Positions 5,045 through 32,442 of a stretch of 41,864 bases of DNA are shown here, piece by piece. A program made the translations under genes and the position numbers. Position 1 is the stretch's first letter; every line of letters begins with the position of its first letter. The stretch comes from a virus. The DNA lies in IMG/VR virus record IMGVR_UViG_3300031227_000123, positions 1-41,864 of that record; one strand, 5' to 3'. The notes beneath the pieces are model-generated. The model worked only from the letters and a program-made list of their open reading frames with translations. It searched no databases and had not been told where the DNA came from.

Positions 5045-5495
5045 GTCCGATAATGTTTCTATGGCGTGGATCTCGTTTTTTGAATTTTGAATTTCAGAAC
5101 CGCAGGCAGTCAGTGTGCGTGGGAAGGGAAGGTCCGATAATAAGTACCTTATGGGGGAAAGACCCCGTTTATTATCGGACCAACAATGTGCCACCACACC
5201 CTCAGATCGTAGATATTATCGGACGTACACCACCACCCACCCCACCACATTATCGGACGTTGTGCATTATCGGACCTACATTATCGGACGTCGATATTAT
5301 CGGACCAGTGTCAGGCCGGCACGTCCGATAATCCGAATGATACATAACCCCGATTATAGGACTACGCAGCCGAGGCCTCAGTTGGTCCGATAACATGCTG
5401 GTCCGATAATAAATTCCGGCCCCCACGTCACGTCCGATAATGTTTAGGTGCGGGCAAGGAATGAGGTCCGATAACCTGGGCAGGGCTATCGGACC
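5045..5495. repeat. Left array of the TTATCGGAC motif (13 exact copies plus variants)
   Basis: This gene-free stretch upstream of the BCS1-like promoter is filled with the 9-mer TTATCGGAC. Reverse-oriented copies start at 5045 and 5132; forward copies at 5172, 5216, 5250, 5267, 5281 and 5297; reverse copies at 5323, 5385, 5401, 5432 and 5466. One-mismatch forms are at 5353 and 5486. The base before the motif is nearly always A or G. Many neighbours are 14-17 or 31-34 bp apart. The last pair (5465-5495) forms a 9-bp inverted repeat. I see no gene in 4985-5537. The array could bind a phage repressor or replication initiator. Confidence 0.9.
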
Positions 5496-6942: not shown

Positions 6943-7572
6943 TCAAACCTCCATAAACGAAAAGAACGGGGTTTCGCAGAAGATTTCGTGATAGACTTGA
7001 ATGAACGACCGGTCACGCAATCCGGCTTGACGTCGGACCGCATACCACAAGACAGCCTGATATCCGGCTGGGGTTGCCTTGCACGCTACAGCGTCGCGTT
7101 TTATCTTTCGCTCCAGACGATCATACAATTTCGGCGTTAAGCCTTTATGCTTGATACCGTAGGCTTGACAAATCCAAACGTCTATCGTAACGACGGATAG
7201 ATCGCCTTTAAGGTTTGCTGCGAACCGCGAAACCTTCGGACCATGTATGGGCTTGCCTCGCAATGAGCGTAGAACGTTCACGAGGTGGGCGGGCATTAGT
7301 GCTTGCAAGGCAACGCCGAAAACATCCGGTCGGCGTTTCCGGTTTATGTATGCATGCATGATACCGGTCGCGAGTCTCCAATTCTTCTTGACGTACATTC
7401 GCGGTGACGTACTGGCCAGAAGGTCAACGAATAGTTTCCATTGGTCCCCGTACAATTCGCGGATTAGTCGCGTCGCGTCTGGATACCACTGTAACGCGGA
7501 GTAGTCCAATTCATTCGGCTTGCATCGCAGACGCAAACGAATCTTGTCGGTTTTGCTTTTCGCTTTCGCCAT
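6943..7572 (-). CDS. DUF7178-like phage protein of unknown function
   Basis: 209 residues. The pattern YPDATRL...FVDLLASTSPRMYVKKNW...LRGKPIHGPKVSRF...DLSVVTIDVWICQAYG...GLTPKLYDRLE...AGYQAVLWYAVRRQAG matches a conserved phage/bacterial family that I know as DUF7178-like, whose role is unknown. The conserved SPR, GPKV and TIDVW motifs suggest an enzyme or nucleic-acid-binding protein. The basic N-terminus (MAKAKSKTDKIRLRLR) supports nucleic-acid contact. Confidence 0.65.
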   Translation of the reverse strand: MAKAKSKTDKIRLRLRCKPNELDYSALQWYPDATRLIRELYGDQWKLFVDLLASTSPRMYVKKNWRLATGIMHAYINRKRRPDVFGVALQALMPAHLVNVLRSLRGKPIHGPKVSRFAANLKGDLSVVTIDVWICQAYGIKHKGLTPKLYDRLERKIKRDAVACKATPAGYQAVLWYAVRRQAGLRDRSFIQVYHEIFCETPFFSFMEV

Positions 7573-7749: not shown

Positions 7750-7777
7750 AGTATACACTACAAAACCGGAAACGCAA
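7750..7777 (-). promoter_or_regulatory. Promoter giving a probable leaderless mRNA
   Basis: Minus strand: -35 TTGCGT (7777-7772), 16-bp spacer, -10 TATACT (7755-7750), then six bases (TAAAGT) and ATG at 7743, exactly the geometry seen at the BCS1-like gene. Confidence 0.75.
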
Positions 7778-7861: not shown

Positions 7862-8081
7862 GTCCGATAGTAGTTCGGCTGCGTCTGCGTCCGATAATGC
7901 TTGGGGTCCAATTTGTTATCGGATGGTACGATAATTTACTGCGGAACTTCTCCGTCCGATAACGGTCTAACATTATAGGGCGTGACATTTATCGGACGTG
8001 ACGTTATCGGACCAAGAGTGGCGGCGACCGAGTAAATTATCGGACGTAACCCGACCCACCTCCAACCCACCTTTATCGGAC
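7862..8081. repeat. Right array of the TTATCGGAC motif (6 exact copies plus variants)
   Basis: Exact copies: reverse-oriented at 7889 and 7954; forward at 7989, 8004, 8037 and 8073. One-mismatch forms lie at 7862, 7916 and 7926. As in the left array, copies in the same direction are grouped. The array runs into the ACCCACC array at 8054. Confidence 0.9.
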
Positions 8082-8197
8082 CCCGACCCACCTCCTGAGA
8101 TCTTGCGAAAAACACGACCCACCCTCAACCCACCCTCCGTAAAAGCCGACCCACCTTATCCTTAATGTCCAGAATAGCAACCCACCTTCAACCCACC
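8054..8197 (+). repeat. Eight-copy RACCCACCYY array with helical phasing
   Basis: ACCCACC starts at 8054, 8065, 8086, 8117, 8128, 8149, 8180 and 8191, all in one orientation. The start-to-start spacings are 11, 21, 31, 11, 21, 31 and 11 bp, multiples of the 10.5-bp helical turn, so all copies face the same side of the DNA. The arrangement repeats with a 63-bp period although the sequence between sites is not conserved. This is typical of an iteron or centromere-like protein-binding array. Confidence 0.9.
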
Positions 8198-8269: not shown

Positions 8270-8305
8270 CTCTACAGTTGTCGTGGCACCTCTACAGTTG
8301 TAGAG
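8270..8305. repeat. CTCTACAGTTGT direct repeat and CTCTACA/TGTAGAG palindrome
   Basis: CTCTACAGTTGT occurs at 8270-8281 and again at 8290-8301, 20 bp apart. The second copy is part of the inverted repeat CTCTACA-GT-TGTAGAG (8290-8305), a likely dimeric protein-binding site. Confidence 0.6.
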
Positions 8306-8366
8306 CTAACATAAGTCGCCAAACCCAGAACGAGTCACTCGCCTAAGTCCTTTGTATTACTATATA

Positions 8367-8497
8367 TAACAAGTTAGAGTATTCTACAACTTTAAAATAG
8401 AAGTATAAGAAAATAGAGAACCCACTATGCCGCCACCCCTGGGCTTTCCAATATGTGGGGGAGTGAAAAAAGACCCTCCGAATACTCTAACCTGTTA
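8367..8497. repeat. 18-bp inverted repeat around an AT-rich core
   Basis: The arm at 8367-8384 (TAACAAGTTAGAGTATTC) and the reverse complement of 8480-8497 match at 17 of 18 positions, separated by 95 bp. The left arm and the start of the loop lie in the AT-rich stretch 8351-8420. Confidence 0.7.
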
Positions 8498-8682: not shown

Positions 8683-9144
8683 TTACGAGATGAGCCAGTT
8701 CGGCAGCTCCTCTGCGGTTCCGTCCTGGAGCCCCCGGACCATGACGAACTGGGCCCTGGCGATGTTACGCGGTTTACGGTGGTCAGAAGCCGCCTCAATG
8801 GCCTCTTCGATCTTCCAGGCAGTCTCAGCCACCCCCGGCTTGCTGTACCACACACGGCCGCTGTGGGCGTGTCTCCAGTACCAGCCTTCGCGATGCTTGA
8901 TCGCATAGCCTGCCTCGACTGGCCAGTGCTCCATATCTTCCATCGTCTGGCCGACGCCGTTGACCAGCTCCAGATCCTCCCACAAGATGCTGTTCAGCGT
9001 CATGTAGCCAGAGGTCATCAAAGCATTCACGGCCGGCTTGCGTGAGAGGTAGCCTAAAACACGCTCTCCGAGAAGCCCAGTGGCCCCCGTCCGGCGATTA
9101 AGCACGATGATGTCGCCGCTCTCCTTGTGTCTAATCCACCACAT
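8683..9144 (-). CDS. Protein of unknown function
   Basis: 153 residues from the ATG at 9144, which overlaps the upstream stop as TAATG; an alternative ATG lies at 9159. The centre is rich in Trp and His (HREGWYWRHAHSGRVWYSK). No domain recognised. It is the last gene before the 7744-8682 control region. Confidence 0.65.
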   Translation of the reverse strand: MWWIRHKESGDIIVLNRRTGATGLLGERVLGYLSRKPAVNALMTSGYMTLNSILWEDLELVNGVGQTMEDMEHWPVEAGYAIKHREGWYWRHAHSGRVWYSKPGVAETAWKIEEAIEAASDHRKPRNIARAQFVMVRGLQDGTAEELPNWLIS

Positions 9145-9494
9145 TATGATTTGGCCCATTCCGGATATTGTGACTCTTGATCCCCGTAAATGATCTGCCC
9201 AGGTGACGCCGCGTCCACTTCAACTGTTCCGCTCTCCTCGATTTCCCGCAGGCGATGGAACATTTGGTCGAAGGTCCCCGGAGATGACAGAACATAGTAC
9301 CGATAGCAGTAGATGATGATTCGCCGGCAGAGATCCGCGTACTCGTTCAGGATCATTCGGCCGCTGGTCTCATCACTCTCATACTTCTCGACCTCCGCGA
9401 TTGTCCTGGGTCGCTCCCACCGATCGAAGTGCGTCGGCACCCACCCCCGTGACGAGACCTCAAAGAGGCCGGCACCGTCGGCGGCATAAGTCAT
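9144..9494 (-). CDS. Protein of unknown function
   Basis: 116 residues from the ATG at 9494, chosen because it overlaps the upstream stop as ATGA. It has a Tyr-rich segment (IIIYCYRYYVL) and an acidic C-terminal half. No family recognised. Confidence 0.65.
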   Translation of the reverse strand: MTYAADGAGLFEVSSRGWVPTHFDRWERPRTIAEVEKYESDETSGRMILNEYADLCRRIIIYCYRYYVLSSPGTFDQMFHRLREIEESGTVEVDAASPGQIIYGDQESQYPEWAKS

Positions 9495-14945: not shown

Positions 14946-15017
14946 TGGGAAGTGCGGGACTCGAACCCGCGTTTTCCGGCCGGTCGCCGGCTGTCCTTTC
15001 TATTGGACGAACCTCCC
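14946..15017 (-). tRNA. tRNA-like gene with non-canonical anticodon arm
   Basis: A 72-nt cloverleaf folds: acceptor GGGAGGT/ACTTCCC (7 bp), D stem GTCC/GGAC, T arm GCGGG-TTCGAGT-CCCGC, discriminator A. The anticodon stem pairs at four of five positions, but the loop reads CGACCGG, without the universal U33, and GCCGG-CGA-CCGGC can pair right across it. The D loop (AATAGAAA) lacks the GG pair. It may be a degenerate tRNA or tRNA mimic; I do not assign an amino acid. Confidence 0.6.
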
Positions 15018-17470: not shown

Positions 17471-18244
17471 TTAAAGGCGGGCCCGCAGGTCCGCGTCGAG
17501 TCTTCGCAGTGGGATAGCTAGGCCCAGGTCGGCACCGCCCGCAGGTCTGGCCCTGGCGATTCCTACAACCTTGCCGTCATAGACGAGGGGTCCGCCGCTA
17601 TTGCCGCCCCAGGCAAGGCCGTCGAAAATAAACATGTTCTGATAGTTTTCTCTTGACACACGCGATGTGTATATGATAAGCTGTCTATCCATGTTAAGCA
17701 GCTGCGAACCAACACCCAACAGGCTGGAACCCAGGGGCGGAACTTCTCCTAATTCCAGCCACACGTCTACGGTCCCGTCGATAATTACCATCGCCAGATC
17801 GTCGTCGGAGTCAACCAAGATTTCGACCGCAGAGAAGGTCCGGCCATCCTCAAGAATCACTTTGACGTCCGATAATGATTTCCAGCCAGCGACTACGTGT
17901 CCGGCGGTCAGCAAAATGCTATCGGACGCAAAGACTCCGGTCCCATAACCTGTAGTGCGGATAGTTATCGGACTTAGTATTATTTGATCGAATGTCACTT
18001 CCAGGCGGCACGCGGCCGTGCGTATTTTCTCAATAGTCAACCCACCTTTCGCAGAAGCCAACCCACCTTCGACTGTGTTTAGCCGGTCGTGGTTGCCGTA
18101 GGCCCACTCCTTCACGTTGTGGATGTTCCAATCGTTCCGCCACGTCCGTTGTTTCAGGGTGGTGACGTCACGGTCTTGCCAGACGGTCATCACGACCAGG
18201 ACGGCGAAAAGTAGTACTGCCAAGATGTTCGTCAAGGTTCTCAT
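17471..18244 (-). CDS. Membrane-anchored trypsin-like serine protease
   Basis: 257 residues. An N-terminal helix (residues 7-22) should anchor or export it. The catalytic triad of the DegP/S1 fold is visible: His116 in LTAGHVV, Asp149 in SDDDLAMV and Ser216 in WGGNSGGPL. Hence the domain is probably periplasmic or external. Phage proteases of this type are uncommon; roles in superinfection exclusion or protein turnover are possible. The coding region itself holds two exact TTATCGGAC copies, one variant and two ACCCACC sites. Its message ends at the terminator 17425-17452. Confidence 0.85.
   Translation of the reverse strand: MRTLTNILAVLLFAVLVVMTVWQDRDVTTLKQRTWRNDWNIHNVKEWAYGNHDRLNTVEGGLASAKGGLTIEKIRTAACRLEVTFDQIILSPITIRTTGYGTGVFASDSILLTAGHVVAGWKSLSDVKVILEDGRTFSAVEILVDSDDDLAMVIIDGTVDVWLELGEVPPLGSSLLGVGSQLLNMDRQLIIYTSRVSRENYQNMFIFDGLAWGGNSGGPLVYDGKVVGIARARPAGGADLGLAIPLRRLDADLRARL
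17867..18067. repeat. Intragenic cluster of both repeat motifs
   Basis: TTATCGGAC occurs at 17867-17875 (reverse) and 17965-17973 (forward), with a CTATCGGAC variant at 17919-17927. RACCCACCTT occurs at 18040 and 18061, 21 bp apart. All sites are inside the serine protease gene. The pairing of both motifs mirrors the 7862-8197 region. Confidence 0.85.
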
Positions 18245-20265: not shown

Positions 20266-22632
20266 TTAGAAGGGTGGTTGGTCGTCTGTCTCAGGTACGT
20301 CCTGCCAGACCGTCTTGAATCCGCTGACTGTGTCCCATGTCTTCCGGCATTCGTCCAGCGTGGGAAGCTGGTAGCACCTGGGATTCGTGCAGAAGGCAAG
20401 CCCAGTGGAACGCGGGGCTCCTGGCTGAGGGCTAACTTTCATGGTGTGAATGGAGGGATACCCAGCGGGCATTATCCTCGTTAGGAATCTAGTCAGCCGG
20501 TGCTTAGAGCATCGGTTCATGTAGCCGCCGACGTACAGTTTGACAAACTCACAGAAGTCCATGAACATCTCTTCCTTGGGCACCATCATCTCCCACTCCT
20601 CGTGGCGTGCCAGGACTCTGCCATCGTGCAACTTGTCATACCACCACGACTCCTCTGGCGTCATGTTAAGCTGTTTCTGCTCACCCAACGCTTCGGTGTT
20701 TGGTGCATCTCGGAGGTTGACGCGGGAGAGATCGTACGATAGCAGGTAGTGCAGTAATGCCTCATACCCACCGTTGTTTAGTTCGGCGGCGATCTGTCCG
20801 AAATACTTGGTGTCCTGCATGTGCTCTTCGCTGAGATCCAGCACAAAGAACCGGCGATCATCCATAGCCACAGGGACAACCCATTCGCTGTTGGATGCCA
20901 TGATGAGGTGGATGTAATTCGGTTGAGCTTCGGAGTCGATACCCTTCTTCTCCACGATGATGTGCTCTTCTGTAATCAGGGCTTTCAAGATCCCTTCACT
21001 CCTCTTATCACCGGCGAAGAACGCCTCATCCGCGAAGAGGACAACGCAGTCCCGCAGGTGATCGTTGAACGACCCTACGAGGTGCTTTGAGTTACTGATC
21101 TGGAGGAAGTGCTGCCCGAAGAGCTTGCCCACCGCCTTGGCAAAGAAACTTTTGCCGGTGCCTTGTTTGCCACGCATGACGACCGCAGTGCCGGCCGGCC
21201 GGTTCGGGTTCTGCACGGAGTCCGCGAGCCACGCCATGAGGTAGTTGTAATTGACTTCGTTGCCTTGACACACGTTGTCACGTAGGTGTCCCAGGAAGCC
21301 TTCGCAGTTTCCAGGGATCGCTTCGCAGGTGAACCCACGCCATAGGTTGTAGGCCCCCGCTACTTCCTGCCCCGGCACGAACACGATGGCGTCGTACTGT
21401 CGGCGGTTTCGTTGCTGGAGCCACCACTTGCCCATCGGCATGAGTTGATCGGCACCGTTCTTGTCCTCGCCCATCTTGACTGATCTATGCATGTACCTAT
21501 TCGTGAAATCTGCAAAGGTCTGTACTGAGCTTTTCTCCCGCTCAAACGCGTAGTCGTGTTCCTCGGAAATGATTCGGCACTTGCCGCCCATCGACGCAAT
21601 GACCGCGTGACGTTCGTTAAGCTCTTTAAGGGCAGGGTCAATCGCGTACTCTTTGGCTCGCTCGATCTGTCGCAGGGCGTACGACTCGGCCCGAGACCCA
21701 AGCGTTACTACCGACTCGGCAATGGCGAAGTCTTTGTCAGTAATGATTGAGAAGATGACGTCGTCTGGGACGCCAGCACGATACAGTTCGCAGCATACGC
21801 AGAACAGTGTCTCACTGCGTGACTCAAACCGCCCAGGGTTGTCGGGGTCGCGGCCCTGCACGATGAGTACCTTGACCCATCCCTTGACACCGTCGCCAAG
21901 CTCATCCAGGTTCTCGACCCTGCGGACGTTGCCGGTATCCACCTTGGGTATCAGCTCAGACTTACCACCAGAAAACCCAGAGGAGGCAGAGGCCTGAACT
22001 CTTTGGGCCGGCGTGAAGGTTGCTATAGGATAGGAGATCTTTACATCGAAGTGGACCAGCTCGGCCATTACTTCTTTGCGGCCTTTGGCCCTCTTCTTTT
22101 CGTTGGGCCGGTTCATCGTCCCAGGGAGCCGCATGATCCTATCGATGTTGTGACAGTTGTCTCCGCCCAGGAGCATCTCAAGCTGCATGTTGTATCGCTT
22201 GGTGTCCTCGGCCAGTTGCAGATCGCCACCGATCGCTATGGGCTCTTCGAGTCGCCAGAAGGCTTGATACCCACCGCCTGAGAAGATGACGCAGGTCGGC
22301 ACCGGCTTGAACTCGCGGATCTTCTGGAGTATTCGCGTCTGCTCATCTTCCAGACCTTCGCCGGCACGCGGGTCCACATCTACGTGTAGGTACTCGACTG
22401 CTTCGATGTCCTCGCGTGACGCCTTCTTACTGACGGAGCCCTTGGCTGGATTGACGGAGAAGTAGACGTTGTTTGTCTGCCCGTGCTCGACCAGCCACGT
22501 CTCTGTCTTCTCTTCCGCGTCGCCGCCGAATGTCACGGTGTCTAGCTTTCCGCCGTCCACGGGTATAGCCGTCAGGGTCCAAGGACCGCCCGGCCTAAAC
22601 GCCCGCAAAAAATCAATTGCTGGATGCGGCAT
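20266..22632 (-). CDS. Primase-helicase (RepB/prim-pol-like N-terminus, SF3 helicase)
   Basis: 788 residues. Residues about 50-200 carry HVDVD (83-87), SGGGYQAFW (118-126) and DRIMRLPGTMN (164-174), typical of archaeo-eukaryotic-type primases of phages and plasmids. The C-terminal half has Walker A GKQGTGKS (488-495), Walker B LFADEA and MASNSEWVVP, as in DUF5906/D5-like SF3 helicases. It should unwind and prime the phage origin. The ATG overlaps the HNH gene by 20 nt. Confidence 0.85.
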   Translation of the reverse strand: MPHPAIDFLRAFRPGGPWTLTAIPVDGGKLDTVTFGGDAEEKTETWLVEHGQTNNVYFSVNPAKGSVSKKASREDIEAVEYLHVDVDPRAGEGLEDEQTRILQKIREFKPVPTCVIFSGGGYQAFWRLEEPIAIGGDLQLAEDTKRYNMQLEMLLGGDNCHNIDRIMRLPGTMNRPNEKKRAKGRKEVMAELVHFDVKISYPIATFTPAQRVQASASSGFSGGKSELIPKVDTGNVRRVENLDELGDGVKGWVKVLIVQGRDPDNPGRFESRSETLFCVCCELYRAGVPDDVIFSIITDKDFAIAESVVTLGSRAESYALRQIERAKEYAIDPALKELNERHAVIASMGGKCRIISEEHDYAFEREKSSVQTFADFTNRYMHRSVKMGEDKNGADQLMPMGKWWLQQRNRRQYDAIVFVPGQEVAGAYNLWRGFTCEAIPGNCEGFLGHLRDNVCQGNEVNYNYLMAWLADSVQNPNRPAGTAVVMRGKQGTGKSFFAKAVGKLFGQHFLQISNSKHLVGSFNDHLRDCVVLFADEAFFAGDKRSEGILKALITEEHIIVEKKGIDSEAQPNYIHLIMASNSEWVVPVAMDDRRFFVLDLSEEHMQDTKYFGQIAAELNNGGYEALLHYLLSYDLSRVNLRDAPNTEALGEQKQLNMTPEESWWYDKLHDGRVLARHEEWEMMVPKEEMFMDFCEFVKLYVGGYMNRCSKHRLTRFLTRIMPAGYPSIHTMKVSPQPGAPRSTGLAFCTNPRCYQLPTLDECRKTWDTVSGFKTVWQDVPETDDQPPF

Positions 22633-28362: not shown

Positions 28363-28364
28363 AA

Positions 28365-28437
28365 TGGACTGACCAGGAATCGAACCTAGACTTAGGGGAG
28401 AACTCCCCACGTGCTCGCCAATTTACACTACCAGCCC
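28365..28437 (-). tRNA. tRNA-like gene with non-canonical anticodon loop
   Basis: 73 nt: acceptor GGGCTGG/TCAGTCC (7 bp with G-U pairs), U8-A9, D stem GTGT/GCAC with GG in the loop, T arm CTAGG-TTCGATT-CCTGG, discriminator A. The anticodon stem-loop is TGGGG-AGTTCTC-CCCTA, with G instead of U at position 33 and a 3-nt variable loop; GGGGAG-TT-CTCCCC can pair through it. The amino acid is not assigned. Confidence 0.6.
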
Positions 28438-28443
28438 AGAGCG

Positions 28444-29332: not shown

Positions 29333-29908
29333 TTACTTGCTTGAGATCTCGACGACATTAACACAATGCACGCCGAATGTTTCCATGGGAATTGCCTTCC
29401 CGTCTTTCAGTTGTGCGGTAACGAAAGCCTTCACAGTCGCGGAGTGAACGTCTAACTCCGTGCGATGGTTCGGCCAGCCCTTGCCGATCAGGCGGAACAG
29501 TGCGTCCACCTTATCCATCCGTGTCTTGTCGAACTCGATGACCACGTTTCGCTTGACCATGCCACCGTGTCCGTTCTCATCCAACCACGCGATAGCCTTG
29601 GGCTTGCGACCCTTGGAGAGACTGGCGAACACCTTTTTTCTCAGCTTCAACGGCAGACCGCTTCGCGTCTTCAACTCTTGCATGCCCACTTCCTCGAACA
29701 TCTCAGGGAGCTGTTCTTCGGCGATCTGTCGGTGTTGCTCTGTGAGCTTCTTGGTGGTCAGCACTGACTCAGCAATCTCCTTGTCCAGGGCATGCATCTC
29801 ATCGGCCAGCACTGAGATCCGGCCAAGGATGTCCTTCTGATTCGTTGCAGCGTCTTCGCCAAAGTCTGAATAGTCATATGGTAACTCGTTGGTCGGGGCT
29901 TTACTCAT
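29333..29908 (-). CDS. Phage coiled-coil protein of the replication block
   Basis: 191 residues; residues about 25-70 form a coiled coil and the C-terminus (VHSATVKAFVTAQLKDGKAI) matches a conserved phage protein family of unknown role. First gene behind the duplicated promoter and just ahead of the ssDNA-binding-like gene. Confidence 0.6.
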   Translation of the reverse strand: MSKAPTNELPYDYSDFGEDAATNQKDILGRISVLADEMHALDKEIAESVLTTKKLTEQHRQIAEEQLPEMFEEVGMQELKTRSGLPLKLRKKVFASLSKGRKPKAIAWLDENGHGGMVKRNVVIEFDKTRMDKVDALFRLIGKGWPNHRTELDVHSATVKAFVTAQLKDGKAIPMETFGVHCVNVVEISSK

Positions 29909-29928: not shown

Positions 29929-29998
29929 GATGATAGTATACCAGTCTCGGAATCGCATGTCAAGATGATAGTATACCAGTCTCGGAATCGCATGTCAA
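29929..29998 (-). promoter_or_regulatory. Perfect tandem duplication of a consensus promoter (2 x 35 bp)
   Basis: Two identical 35-bp units (29929-29963, 29964-29998) each carry, on the minus strand, -35 TTGACA, a 17-bp spacer and -10 TATACT. They drive the 29333-29908 and 28488-29312 genes. A near-consensus pair in tandem suggests very strong expression. Confidence 0.85.
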
Positions 29999-30000
29999 GA

Positions 30001-32442
30001 TTAAACTCCAAGAAGGCCCAAAGCATCTGTGATTGCTTCCTTCACGGACGGGCCAGAGTCGGGCCCAGTCACCTCTTGATATGAAGAGAGCCATTTCCGA
30101 ATCCTACCATCAACAACCATAGAGGCGTTGTCGAACTTGACCCGAAGGGCGTTAATGATATCAACATCCTTGGTATTATCGGCAACGATGTCAATGATGT
30201 TTACTTGATTTGTCTGCCCGGCTCGGTGATTCCTGGCCTGCGACTGGTGCCGTTCCTTCATCTTGAAACTGTTGCTGTAGTAGATCATCGTCAGTGCCTC
30301 GTTCAATGTGTGACCTTCGCCCATGCTGTCGGGCGTTGCCACCATGAACTTGACGTCGTCCACGGACTCTTGCTTGAACCGCCGCTTGTTCTCTTCGCGT
30401 TGGTCCTCGTGGACCGACCCATCCCACCGGACGGCTGAGTCCCCAAGCATCTCACAGATCAGGTCGATGTCCTGAATGAACCTAGCCCAGATGATCGTCT
30501 TGTGGGGCAGGTCCTGCGTGATCTCATTCAGGATACGGAGCCTCGGGTTCTCCTTCTCGATCATGATGCATTCGTTCTCAATGCCGGTCGGAAGGTATCC
30601 ACACGCCACCTGTTGAAGCCGCAGAAGTCTCGTGATCGCGAGCGGCGTGAAGACCATCTCACCATCGATCTCAGCCATGAAGTCGTCCTCCAGCTCCTTG
30701 TAGAGCCGCCACTGCTTCGGAGTCATCTCAAAGCCAGCGTAGGAGTAGAGCTGTGGTGGTAGATCCAGGACGTCCTCTTTCAGAACACGTGACGACATGA
30801 GCTGCACCAACTCGGTCAAGATCCCCAGGTTCTTATAGCCTACGAGCTGATCGAACTCGCGGTCCATCTGACCGTTGTAGCCCTTCACCCAAATGCCAAA
30901 CATCGTCTTGAAGCACTGGTAACTTCCGAGACCGTAAGGCGTCTCAGACCAGAACCGCTTATCGAGGAATCGGAACTGCGTGTACACGTCGAACGGCGTG
31001 TTGGTGATCGGCGTCCCGCAGAGCGTTCGCTTGTAGTCCGCGTACTCGGCTGAGGCCAGCACCGTCCGGGTGATCTTCGCTGACGGCGTCTTGATTCGGT
31101 TCGACTCATCTGCTACATAGAGACATCGGTGCGTCGTCAGAAACTTCTTCGCCAACTTCTTACCAATCTCCGTCTTGATCCCTGGGTATGACATCGCAAG
31201 GATCGGAAAGTCGGTGGCATTCATCACGGCGTCACATGCTCTCTTATGCTTCTGGGTCTTGGCCCGTTTTGTCTGGAACGCGATCGCCGAATACGGAAGG
31301 CTGAAATGGTCCGGGATCTCGTAGTTCACCCAATTGGTGTGAAGCCCAGGAGGGGCGAGGACGAAGAGTGCGTCGATCTCGCCGGCCTTGAACAGTGCTT
31401 CGGCCGTTGCTAACGCGAGCCACGTCTTGCCAGTATTGCCAGACGGAAAGACACAACCGTTTCGACGTAATATCAAGAAGCCGGTCGGCACACAAAAGCA
31501 ATATTTTTTTCCATCTACTGTTTCTTCAACAGAGAAATTTTCGCTACCCACTGAGTAGCTTTTAGTATGAACTTGTCTTTGTTCCAAATACCAGATGCCC
31601 CTACTATTTTCATTGATTCGAGCAACACCCCCAGAAGATGCGATTAGTAGCTGAATGAAATCCACATCAGATTTTTGCTTTGAGTAGAAGACATGTCCCT
31701 TACTTCCATCCCAGTGAAAGACTTCATCTAGGATGACATCTCGCTGCTTATTGTTCATAGCACACCACCAAGACCGAGGGTAGTGCTTCAATCTTACCGG
31801 AGCGTTGAAGTGATACACTGTGTCGTTTGGCCTGTTCTTCGGTGTTGCTGTCTTATATTCGATGCCAGCGTCGCTCAGTAACTCTTCCAGACGTTTCTTT
31901 TTTCTGGCCTTAACCAAATAGAGATGACATCGTGTCGTTGTAGTTCCGACATCGAACGAACCATCTGCCATAACTGCTACCAACACCCGCAGCTCCTTAT
32001 CCGTGTATCTGAGGCCGCAGCCGGGCAGTGACATAGTGAACCCAGCGGGTATGCTCTGACGACGTGACGCTTTGGCGTTTAACTTCTGAAAAAGTCCCTG
32101 AGCACTATCTACAATTGGACGACCTCTCCAATCCAGCAATGGCATTTTATGTTCAAACGATACCTTCTGGTCTACGCCCTTCGATGTTTTGATGCGGATC
32201 ATTTCTCTACAAGGCAGCACCACATACTCAGATGGAGTGACAAACTCTGCAACACCTGTTTCGGGATGCCACTGAGCCACCTCACCATCGTTAGGGTATT
32301 CTGATATTTTTCGCCAGCCTATCGGACTCAAATACTCAGTGTCGTCTGAAAAACATCCTTGTTCCCAATGGATCGCTCGCACCTTATCCATGCCGTGCTC
32401 AGTCAGTTCCTTTGCTTGATGGTCAAACGGGCTAGTTATCAT
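30001..32442 (-). CDS. SNF2-family helicase interrupted by an intein
   Basis: 813 residues from the ATG at 32442 (ATGA overlap with the upstream stop); the mature helicase is about 506 residues once the 307-residue intein is removed. The N-extein ends WEQG and the C-extein begins TGKTW, which rejoin as Walker A. Further motifs: CLYVADESNRI (motif II), LCGTPITNTP (motif III) and QSQARNHRAGQTNQVNIIDI (motif VI). It probably remodels DNA or protein-DNA complexes in replication. Confidence 0.9.
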   Translation of the reverse strand: MITSPFDHQAKELTEHGMDKVRAIHWEQGCFSDDTEYLSPIGWRKISEYPNDGEVAQWHPETGVAEFVTPSEYVVLPCREMIRIKTSKGVDQKVSFEHKMPLLDWRGRPIVDSAQGLFQKLNAKASRRQSIPAGFTMSLPGCGLRYTDKELRVLVAVMADGSFDVGTTTTRCHLYLVKARKKKRLEELLSDAGIEYKTATPKNRPNDTVYHFNAPVRLKHYPRSWWCAMNNKQRDVILDEVFHWDGSKGHVFYSKQKSDVDFIQLLIASSGGVARINENSRGIWYLEQRQVHTKSYSVGSENFSVEETVDGKKYCFCVPTGFLILRRNGCVFPSGNTGKTWLALATAEALFKAGEIDALFVLAPPGLHTNWVNYEIPDHFSLPYSAIAFQTKRAKTQKHKRACDAVMNATDFPILAMSYPGIKTEIGKKLAKKFLTTHRCLYVADESNRIKTPSAKITRTVLASAEYADYKRTLCGTPITNTPFDVYTQFRFLDKRFWSETPYGLGSYQCFKTMFGIWVKGYNGQMDREFDQLVGYKNLGILTELVQLMSSRVLKEDVLDLPPQLYSYAGFEMTPKQWRLYKELEDDFMAEIDGEMVFTPLAITRLLRLQQVACGYLPTGIENECIMIEKENPRLRILNEITQDLPHKTIIWARFIQDIDLICEMLGDSAVRWDGSVHEDQREENKRRFKQESVDDVKFMVATPDSMGEGHTLNEALTMIYYSNSFKMKERHQSQARNHRAGQTNQVNIIDIVADNTKDVDIINALRVKFDNASMVVDGRIRKWLSSYQEVTGPDSGPSVKEAITDALGLLGV
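31435..32355 (-). mobile_element. Intein with LAGLIDADG-type endonuclease domain
   Basis: 307 residues from Cys1 (CFSDDTEYLSPIGW, block A) to Asn307 before Thr+1. Block B is VSFEHKMPLL. LVAVMADGSFDV and DFIQLLIASSGGVA are two LAGLIDADG-like motifs. Block F/G is YCFCVPTGFLIL then CVFPSGN: the usual penultimate His is Gly. It is inserted inside the Walker A motif of the helicase. Confidence 0.9.

Follow-up and report, generated by a model that had tools for sequence, protein, structure and literature searches.

Helically phased direct repeats beside readily melting DNA as a probable replication origin in a phage clade related to Mesyanzhinovviridae

The window analyzed here, an IMG/VR virus record of 41,864 bases (G000), codes its genes on the minus strand, and between those at 8683–9159 and 6943–7572 lies about 1.1 kb of intergenic DNA (a possible small ORF aside) that carries a row of direct repeats. 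This row, henceforth array A (8054–8197), consists of eight plus-strand sites, with ACCCACC starting at 8054, 8065, 8086, 8117, 8128, 8149, 8180 and 8191, i.e., at gaps of 11-21-31-11-21-31-11 bp, and with 8/8 copies fitting the consensus RACCCACCYY; re-derived from the sequence, these starts reproduce exactly the copies, strand and spacing given in a preliminary description of the locus. The heptamer ACCCACC occurs 25 times in the window as against 5.5 ± 2.2 in dinucleotide shuffles, and the eight same-strand copies within 144 bp are far beyond chance. When the two full 63-bp units are compared, the sites are identical at 21/21 positions and the spacers at 15/42, which bears out the earlier account of a 63-bp repeat with varying intervening DNA. 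The full site is longer than was then seen: it is the asymmetric 9-bp CAACCCACC (GGTGGGTTG when read on the other strand), the form taken by most of the copies in relatives and by all the repeat-carrying copies within a protease gene described below. A coding origin of array A is ruled out because the gaps of 11 and 31 bp break the reading frame, and an RNA element is likewise ruled out, there being neither an Rfam match nor a stable single-strand fold (z 0.15 vs. shuffles).

Downstream of array A in the direction of transcription lies the minus-strand gene for a DUF7178 protein (6943–7572), which has distant mycobacteriophage relatives (~27% amino acid identity) coded near the right genome end and sometimes annotated as glycosylases. 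Directly to the left of the array clusters a second type of site, TTATCGGAC, one copy of which lies inside the array (8074). In this unphased cluster (7862–8081, both strands), exact copies of TATCGGAC are found at 7862−, 7889−, 7954−, 7990+, 8005+, 8038+ and 8074+, and one-mismatch copies at 7917+ and 7926−; such sites adjoin array A in 5/5 contigs that have the array, with gaps that are not helically phased. A further intergenic TTATCGGAC cluster, again on both strands, occupies 5045–5494, upstream of a good sigma-70-like promoter (TTGACT-17-TACAAT, 5019–4991) that is followed by an AAA ATPase gene, and in both clusters the gaps between same-strand copies tend towards half turns. The TTATCGGAC sites would be the targets of a second regulator. 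On the other side of the array, CTCTACAGTTGT occurs twice, 20 bp apart (8270–8305), before an AT-rich block, its second copy completing the inverted repeat CTCTACAGTTGTAGAG. A scan for words shared downstream of the array returned only TAAGTCCT and ACAACTT, which are too weak for interpretation.

Searching viral contigs for the exact array pattern recovered two other records (L003/L004, i.e., G001/G002), which are 99.99% identical over their shared 9.1 kb and are therefore counted as one lineage. With the DNA polymerase as query, six diverged lineages were obtained, that of G001 at 76% amino acid identity and five more at 70–73%; beyond these six the identity falls to ~50%, with one primase relative at 56%. 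It was the polymerase and alignment queries that recovered relatives, single-protein searches with DUF7178 and the primase yielding none. The array pattern is absent from the 43 more distant relatives searched (30 + 13) and the TTATCGGAC pair from 30 of these more distant relatives; thus, the array is a feature confined to one clade, and a distant DNA search with the array region gave no match among named phages. Compared with Pseudomonas phage Ab18 and Bordetella phage FP1, the clade shows 63–67% identity in the major capsid protein, 49–56% in the large terminase and ~46–54% in the polymerase and primase. The core genes of these two phages (major capsid protein, large terminase, portal, polymerase and primase) are matched in conserved order in G001, G003, G004, G006 and G007, the window itself having neither the major capsid protein nor the large terminase. 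Judged by these protein comparisons, the clade is related to Mesyanzhinovviridae. It gives no sign of lysogeny, and no tyrosine integrase was found in its seven contigs. One of them, G001, looks circularly permuted because its large terminase gene begins at base 3 while the small terminase gene lies near the opposite end.

G001 keeps the 11-21-31-11-21-31-11 layout exactly, with a DUF7178 neighbor that is only 63% identical at the amino acid level. Placed in register, the window and G001 agree at 56/56 site bases and at 43/88 (49%) of the spacer bases; with the bases flanking the sites set aside, 32/67 spacer bases are still identical as against 18 expected, such that there is residual spacer similarity, with spacing and sites conserved far more tightly. 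The preliminary description had posited selection on spacing rather than on sequence: the spacing is indeed kept, and its exclusion of sequence has to be abandoned, given that the site bases are kept too. The exact layout is common to only 2/5 lineages with an intergenic array. In G007 the gaps read 21-21-11-21-31-21-11 (counting one ACCCGCC copy) and in G003 33-31-33-31, while G005 has a single pair at 33 bp, its only two clean copies. The layout changes in these other lineages nearly always amount to whole helical turns, the 33-bp gaps of G003 and G005 being 1.5 bp off phase. Taken together, the array A gaps give a mean cosine of 0.92 at a period of 10.5 bp, with a Monte Carlo p of ~1e-5 when the layout of G000/G001 is counted once and of 0.003 on the four distinct gap sizes alone; the TATCGGAC gaps of the same genomes, treated identically as an internal control, give −0.37. 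This is what the earlier account had proposed to look for in relatives, namely gaps near multiples of 10.5 bp, and neither random spacing nor an array not conserved in relatives, which it had named among the contrary outcomes, was encountered, five lineages (the window's included) having the array. Array A thus consists of helically phased direct repeats of one asymmetric site, as in iteron origins, and its best reading would be that of a row bound by a cooperative protein on one face of the helix. The evolution of the spacing by whole turns between lineages can also be seen as a natural experiment on how strictly nucleoprotein arrays must be phased.

By nearest-neighbor energies, the stretch at 8355–8414, 158 bp to the right of array A, is the least stable 60 bp anywhere in the window and constitutes the proposed DNA unwinding element. 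The corresponding rank-1 60-bp window is found 145–237 bp to the right of the array in G001, G003 and G007, and in these three and G000 the least stable windows, whether of 60 or of 100 bp, all fall 117–237 bp to its right. In G005 the rank-1 window, at 29800, lies on the opposite side, ~90 bp to the left of the short array; the contigs of G004 and G006 are without the array A region and have their rank-1 windows elsewhere. Hence, in 5/5 contigs with array A the contig-wide least stable 60 bp come within 250 bp of it, a coincidence very unlikely by chance, though common ancestry links the lineages and a high AT content is usual in intergenic DNA. In Ab18 (L069), the two least stable 60-bp windows occupy long intergenic regions (123–365 and 31245–31568) that share ACTYGAG repeats, and the two least stable windows of FP1 likewise fall within the two corresponding intergenic regions.

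Some 10 kb from array A, a second set of CAACCCACC sites, array B (18038–18067, plus strand, two sites at a gap of 21 bp), is embedded in the minus-strand gene for a membrane-anchored trypsin-like protease (17471–18244; Pfam PF13365, E 1.1e-11), where it falls in the N-terminal linker and gives GGT GGG TTG on the coding strand. Copies occur at the corresponding place in 6/7 lineages: beside the single 21-bp pair of the window, G001 has four gaps of 21 bp, G003 has 21-21-21-42, G007 has 21-21, G004 has 42-11 and, 127 bp away, one more ACCCACC, and G006 has two copies 53 bp apart. The protease gene of G005 is present, but without clustered CAACCCACC copies. Among the Gly-Gly-Leu motifs of the protease genes, 18/19 are spelled GGT GGG TTG and the remaining one is GGCGGGTTG (GGC GGG TTG), as against 6/40 with the former spelling for the same tripeptide elsewhere, while the codons neighboring these motifs vary. 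Two of the G004 sites, 11 bp apart, occupy different reading frames, which argues that in array B the DNA site, besides the protein, is under constraint. The reading of array B as a mere coding repeat is ruled out by these two frames and by the nearly invariant codons. Array B may be counted as a clear instance in which codons, and even the protein sequence, are dictated by a DNA-binding site. The protease gene of the window also carries TATCGGAC sites (17867−, 17920+ and 17966+), which in this gene occur in G000, G003 and G007.

The preliminary description had left the choice among an initiator, a partition protein and a repressor; the evidence favors an initiator, because the least stable DNA adjoins the array in 5/5 lineages and because no ParA-type ATPase was found in the seven contigs. 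Array A is thus proposed, with a fair measure of confidence, to provide the iterons of an origin of phage replication, because phased, direct, asymmetric sites adjoining the most easily melted DNA are the very anatomy of an iteron origin. A phage initiator would bind the sites of array A as a phased row, the resulting filament or bend would melt the AT-rich block (8355–8414 in the window), and the replicative helicase would enter there. With less confidence, the initiator may be the phage's own P4-alpha-like primase-helicase (20266–22632, minus strand; 788 aa), which combines an N-terminal RepB_primase region with a DUF5906 helicase and might act via its C-terminal winged-helix-like region. 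These C-terminal 175 residues, for which Pfam gave no match, are predicted to adopt a winged-helix-like fold (mean pLDDT 78.8). In a fold search with this model, the best match was insignificant (E 0.83), several of the matches being winged-helix DNA-binding or replication proteins, with the P4 alpha domain not listed among them; since these matches are insignificant, the primase-helicase is put forward as a putative site-binding protein. Array B would play an accessory part in the origin.

Several observations count against the origin model. Array A is ~12 kb from the primase gene (array B is ~2.2 kb past it, and both are outside the gene); G005 has just the two clean copies with the unstable block on the opposite side; the spacer similarity exceeds chance; the 33-bp gaps are off phase; and the fold search with the primase C-terminal model produced no significant match. 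Moreover, the gene-sense GC skew drops across array A in several lineages, the opposite of what a simple bidirectional origin should give, although the uniform gene direction confounds this measure.

A parallel might be struck with satellite phage P4, whose alpha primase-helicase of 777 aa acts with ori1 and crr, two iteron sets that lie apart. A single short repeat likewise makes up arrays A and B, which are separated from each other and both present in G000, G001, G003 and G007, and the primase-helicase is of similar size, with one set lying shortly past its gene; by analogy, A and B may correspond to ori1 and crr, array B being to A what crr is to ori1. Unlike in P4, the site is a different one, array A lies far from the primase gene, and the C-terminal model is without a detectable structural match to P4 alpha. 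Plasmid iterons are generally in helical phase, an origin can be inactivated by upsetting that phase, and an AT-rich region is opened beside them (PMC5043065). Array A resembles the iteron origins of P1, RK2, R6K and pSC101 in its direct, asymmetric, in-phase repeats beside an AT-rich region; it differs in that its site is only 9 bp long, in that its gaps alternate among one, two and three turns where plasmid repeats are nearly constant, and in that it resides in a phage, with a second set in coding sequence ~10 kb away. No plasmid-type Rep protein was identified in the phage. The lambda origin offers both iterons with an adjacent AT-rich region that opens and the embedding of iterons in coding sequence, as in array B (PMC5043065). 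However, the iterons of lambda, to which O dimers bind, are inverted repeats located within the gene for the initiator, whereas array B occupies a protease gene and array A is intergenic.

The principle of phased iterons is already known from plasmids, whereas the 9-bp site, its layout at one, two and three turns, the second set within coding sequence and their presence in this phage clade appear to be undescribed in the searchable open-access text. That all this adds up to a new design of phage origin, with a self-loading primase-helicase recognizing 9-bp monomer sites at one, two and three turns and completed by a distant row in a protease gene that shapes the protein's linker, is a doubtful proposition, offered tentatively. 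Outside the model systems, few origins of lytic tailed phages have been mapped; in this light, array A provides a nucleotide-resolution, spacing-based prediction of the origin for the Mesyanzhinovviridae-related clade, inclusive of the place of melting and a candidate initiator.

The main rival to the origin is transcriptional control, wherein arrays A and B would be phased operators or enhancers through which a phage or host regulator would turn operons on or off, TTATCGGAC acting as a second operator. Array A does precede an operon that runs leftward and has, near 7750, a TATACT resembling a promoter, and in Ab18 it is the AT-rich regions before the replication and terminase operons that share the ACTYGAG repeats. 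Further, the sites of both arrays are asymmetric and keep a single orientation relative to transcription, as do the asymmetric, orientation-dependent stoperators of cluster A mycobacteriophages (PMC9283540). Stoperators, however, are spread singly across the genome, whereas the array sites form helically phased rows at two loci, with the full 9-mer rare elsewhere (in 402 kb, 8 copies beyond the two arrays). Array B, moreover, is intragenic, with both a terminator and a separate promoter downstream, and regulation leaves the least stable DNA beside array A unexplained, which together make transcriptional control an unlikely, if serious, contender.

A packaging (pac) site bound by the small terminase is a far weaker candidate. 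In some phages this protein forms rings that bind repeated DNA elements, and the G001 contig appears to be circularly permuted; nonetheless, packaging is very improbable because array A lies 6–16 kb from the small terminase gene, i.e., 6–9 kb upstream of it in G007 and G001, with many genes between, and ~16 kb from it across the contig ends in G003, while array B forms a second full-motif set ~10 kb further off. Still less credence can be given to a partition (centromere) site akin to the iteron arrays of ParR or TubR: such sites are typically phased direct repeats bound by small DNA-binding proteins. However, both partition and lysogeny are weakened by the failure to find a ParA-type ATPase (control genomes all positive, the contigs possibly incomplete, and the search, unlike one for ParM or TubZ, covering the ParA type alone) or a tyrosine integrase in the seven contigs of a clade without signs of lysogeny. 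Least plausible of all are G-quadruplexes formed by GGGTGGGTTGAGGGTGGG on the minus strand, which the G-runs of the 11-bp pairs in G000 and G001 would allow, but which are ruled out as not kept across layouts, since the 21-, 31- and 33-bp layouts of G003 and array B separate four G-runs while site and phase persist; the single-strand fold of the array is no better than shuffles, quadruplexes being outside that tool's model.

Unrelated phage contigs (L007, L011, L019, L024 and L025) also have CCCACC repeats at gaps of 10–11 or 21–22 bp; as the searches themselves selected for gaps of 11 and 21 bp, outside the clade only the extra copies are informative. In L025 (2037–2617) and L024 (10266–10461), GACCCCACC repeats are spaced at 11, 21 and 22 bp, and those of L025 come directly after a DNA polymerase/primase-like gene, a placement that was counted for the origin reading. 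In L011 (minus strand, 1642–1705), L019 (minus strand, 114–230) and L007 (minus strand, 348–432), CCCACC alternates at 11 and 10 bp with a 21-bp period just after a terminator-like hairpin. These repeats outside the clade, including those of L025, are a lead and no evidence of kinship. In bacterial genomes the 11-21 pattern gave eight matches, mostly chance or repeats, the exception being L156, a MAG contig labeled Mageeibacillus, with intergenic AACCCACC-like copies at 11, 21, 11, 22 and 12 bp (450–530) and a second intergenic set at 11 and 22 bp (2860–2945), the neighboring proteins being without phage families. Elsewhere in the window, tRNAs were called at 14946–15017 and 28364–28438, one each by Rfam and ARAGORN, at different places and thus without mutual confirmation. 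A perfect 35-bp direct repeat (2.1 copies) lies between genes at 29929–30001, and a 57-bp tandem repeat (6.7 copies, 94% match) occupies positions 1–381 at the window's end.
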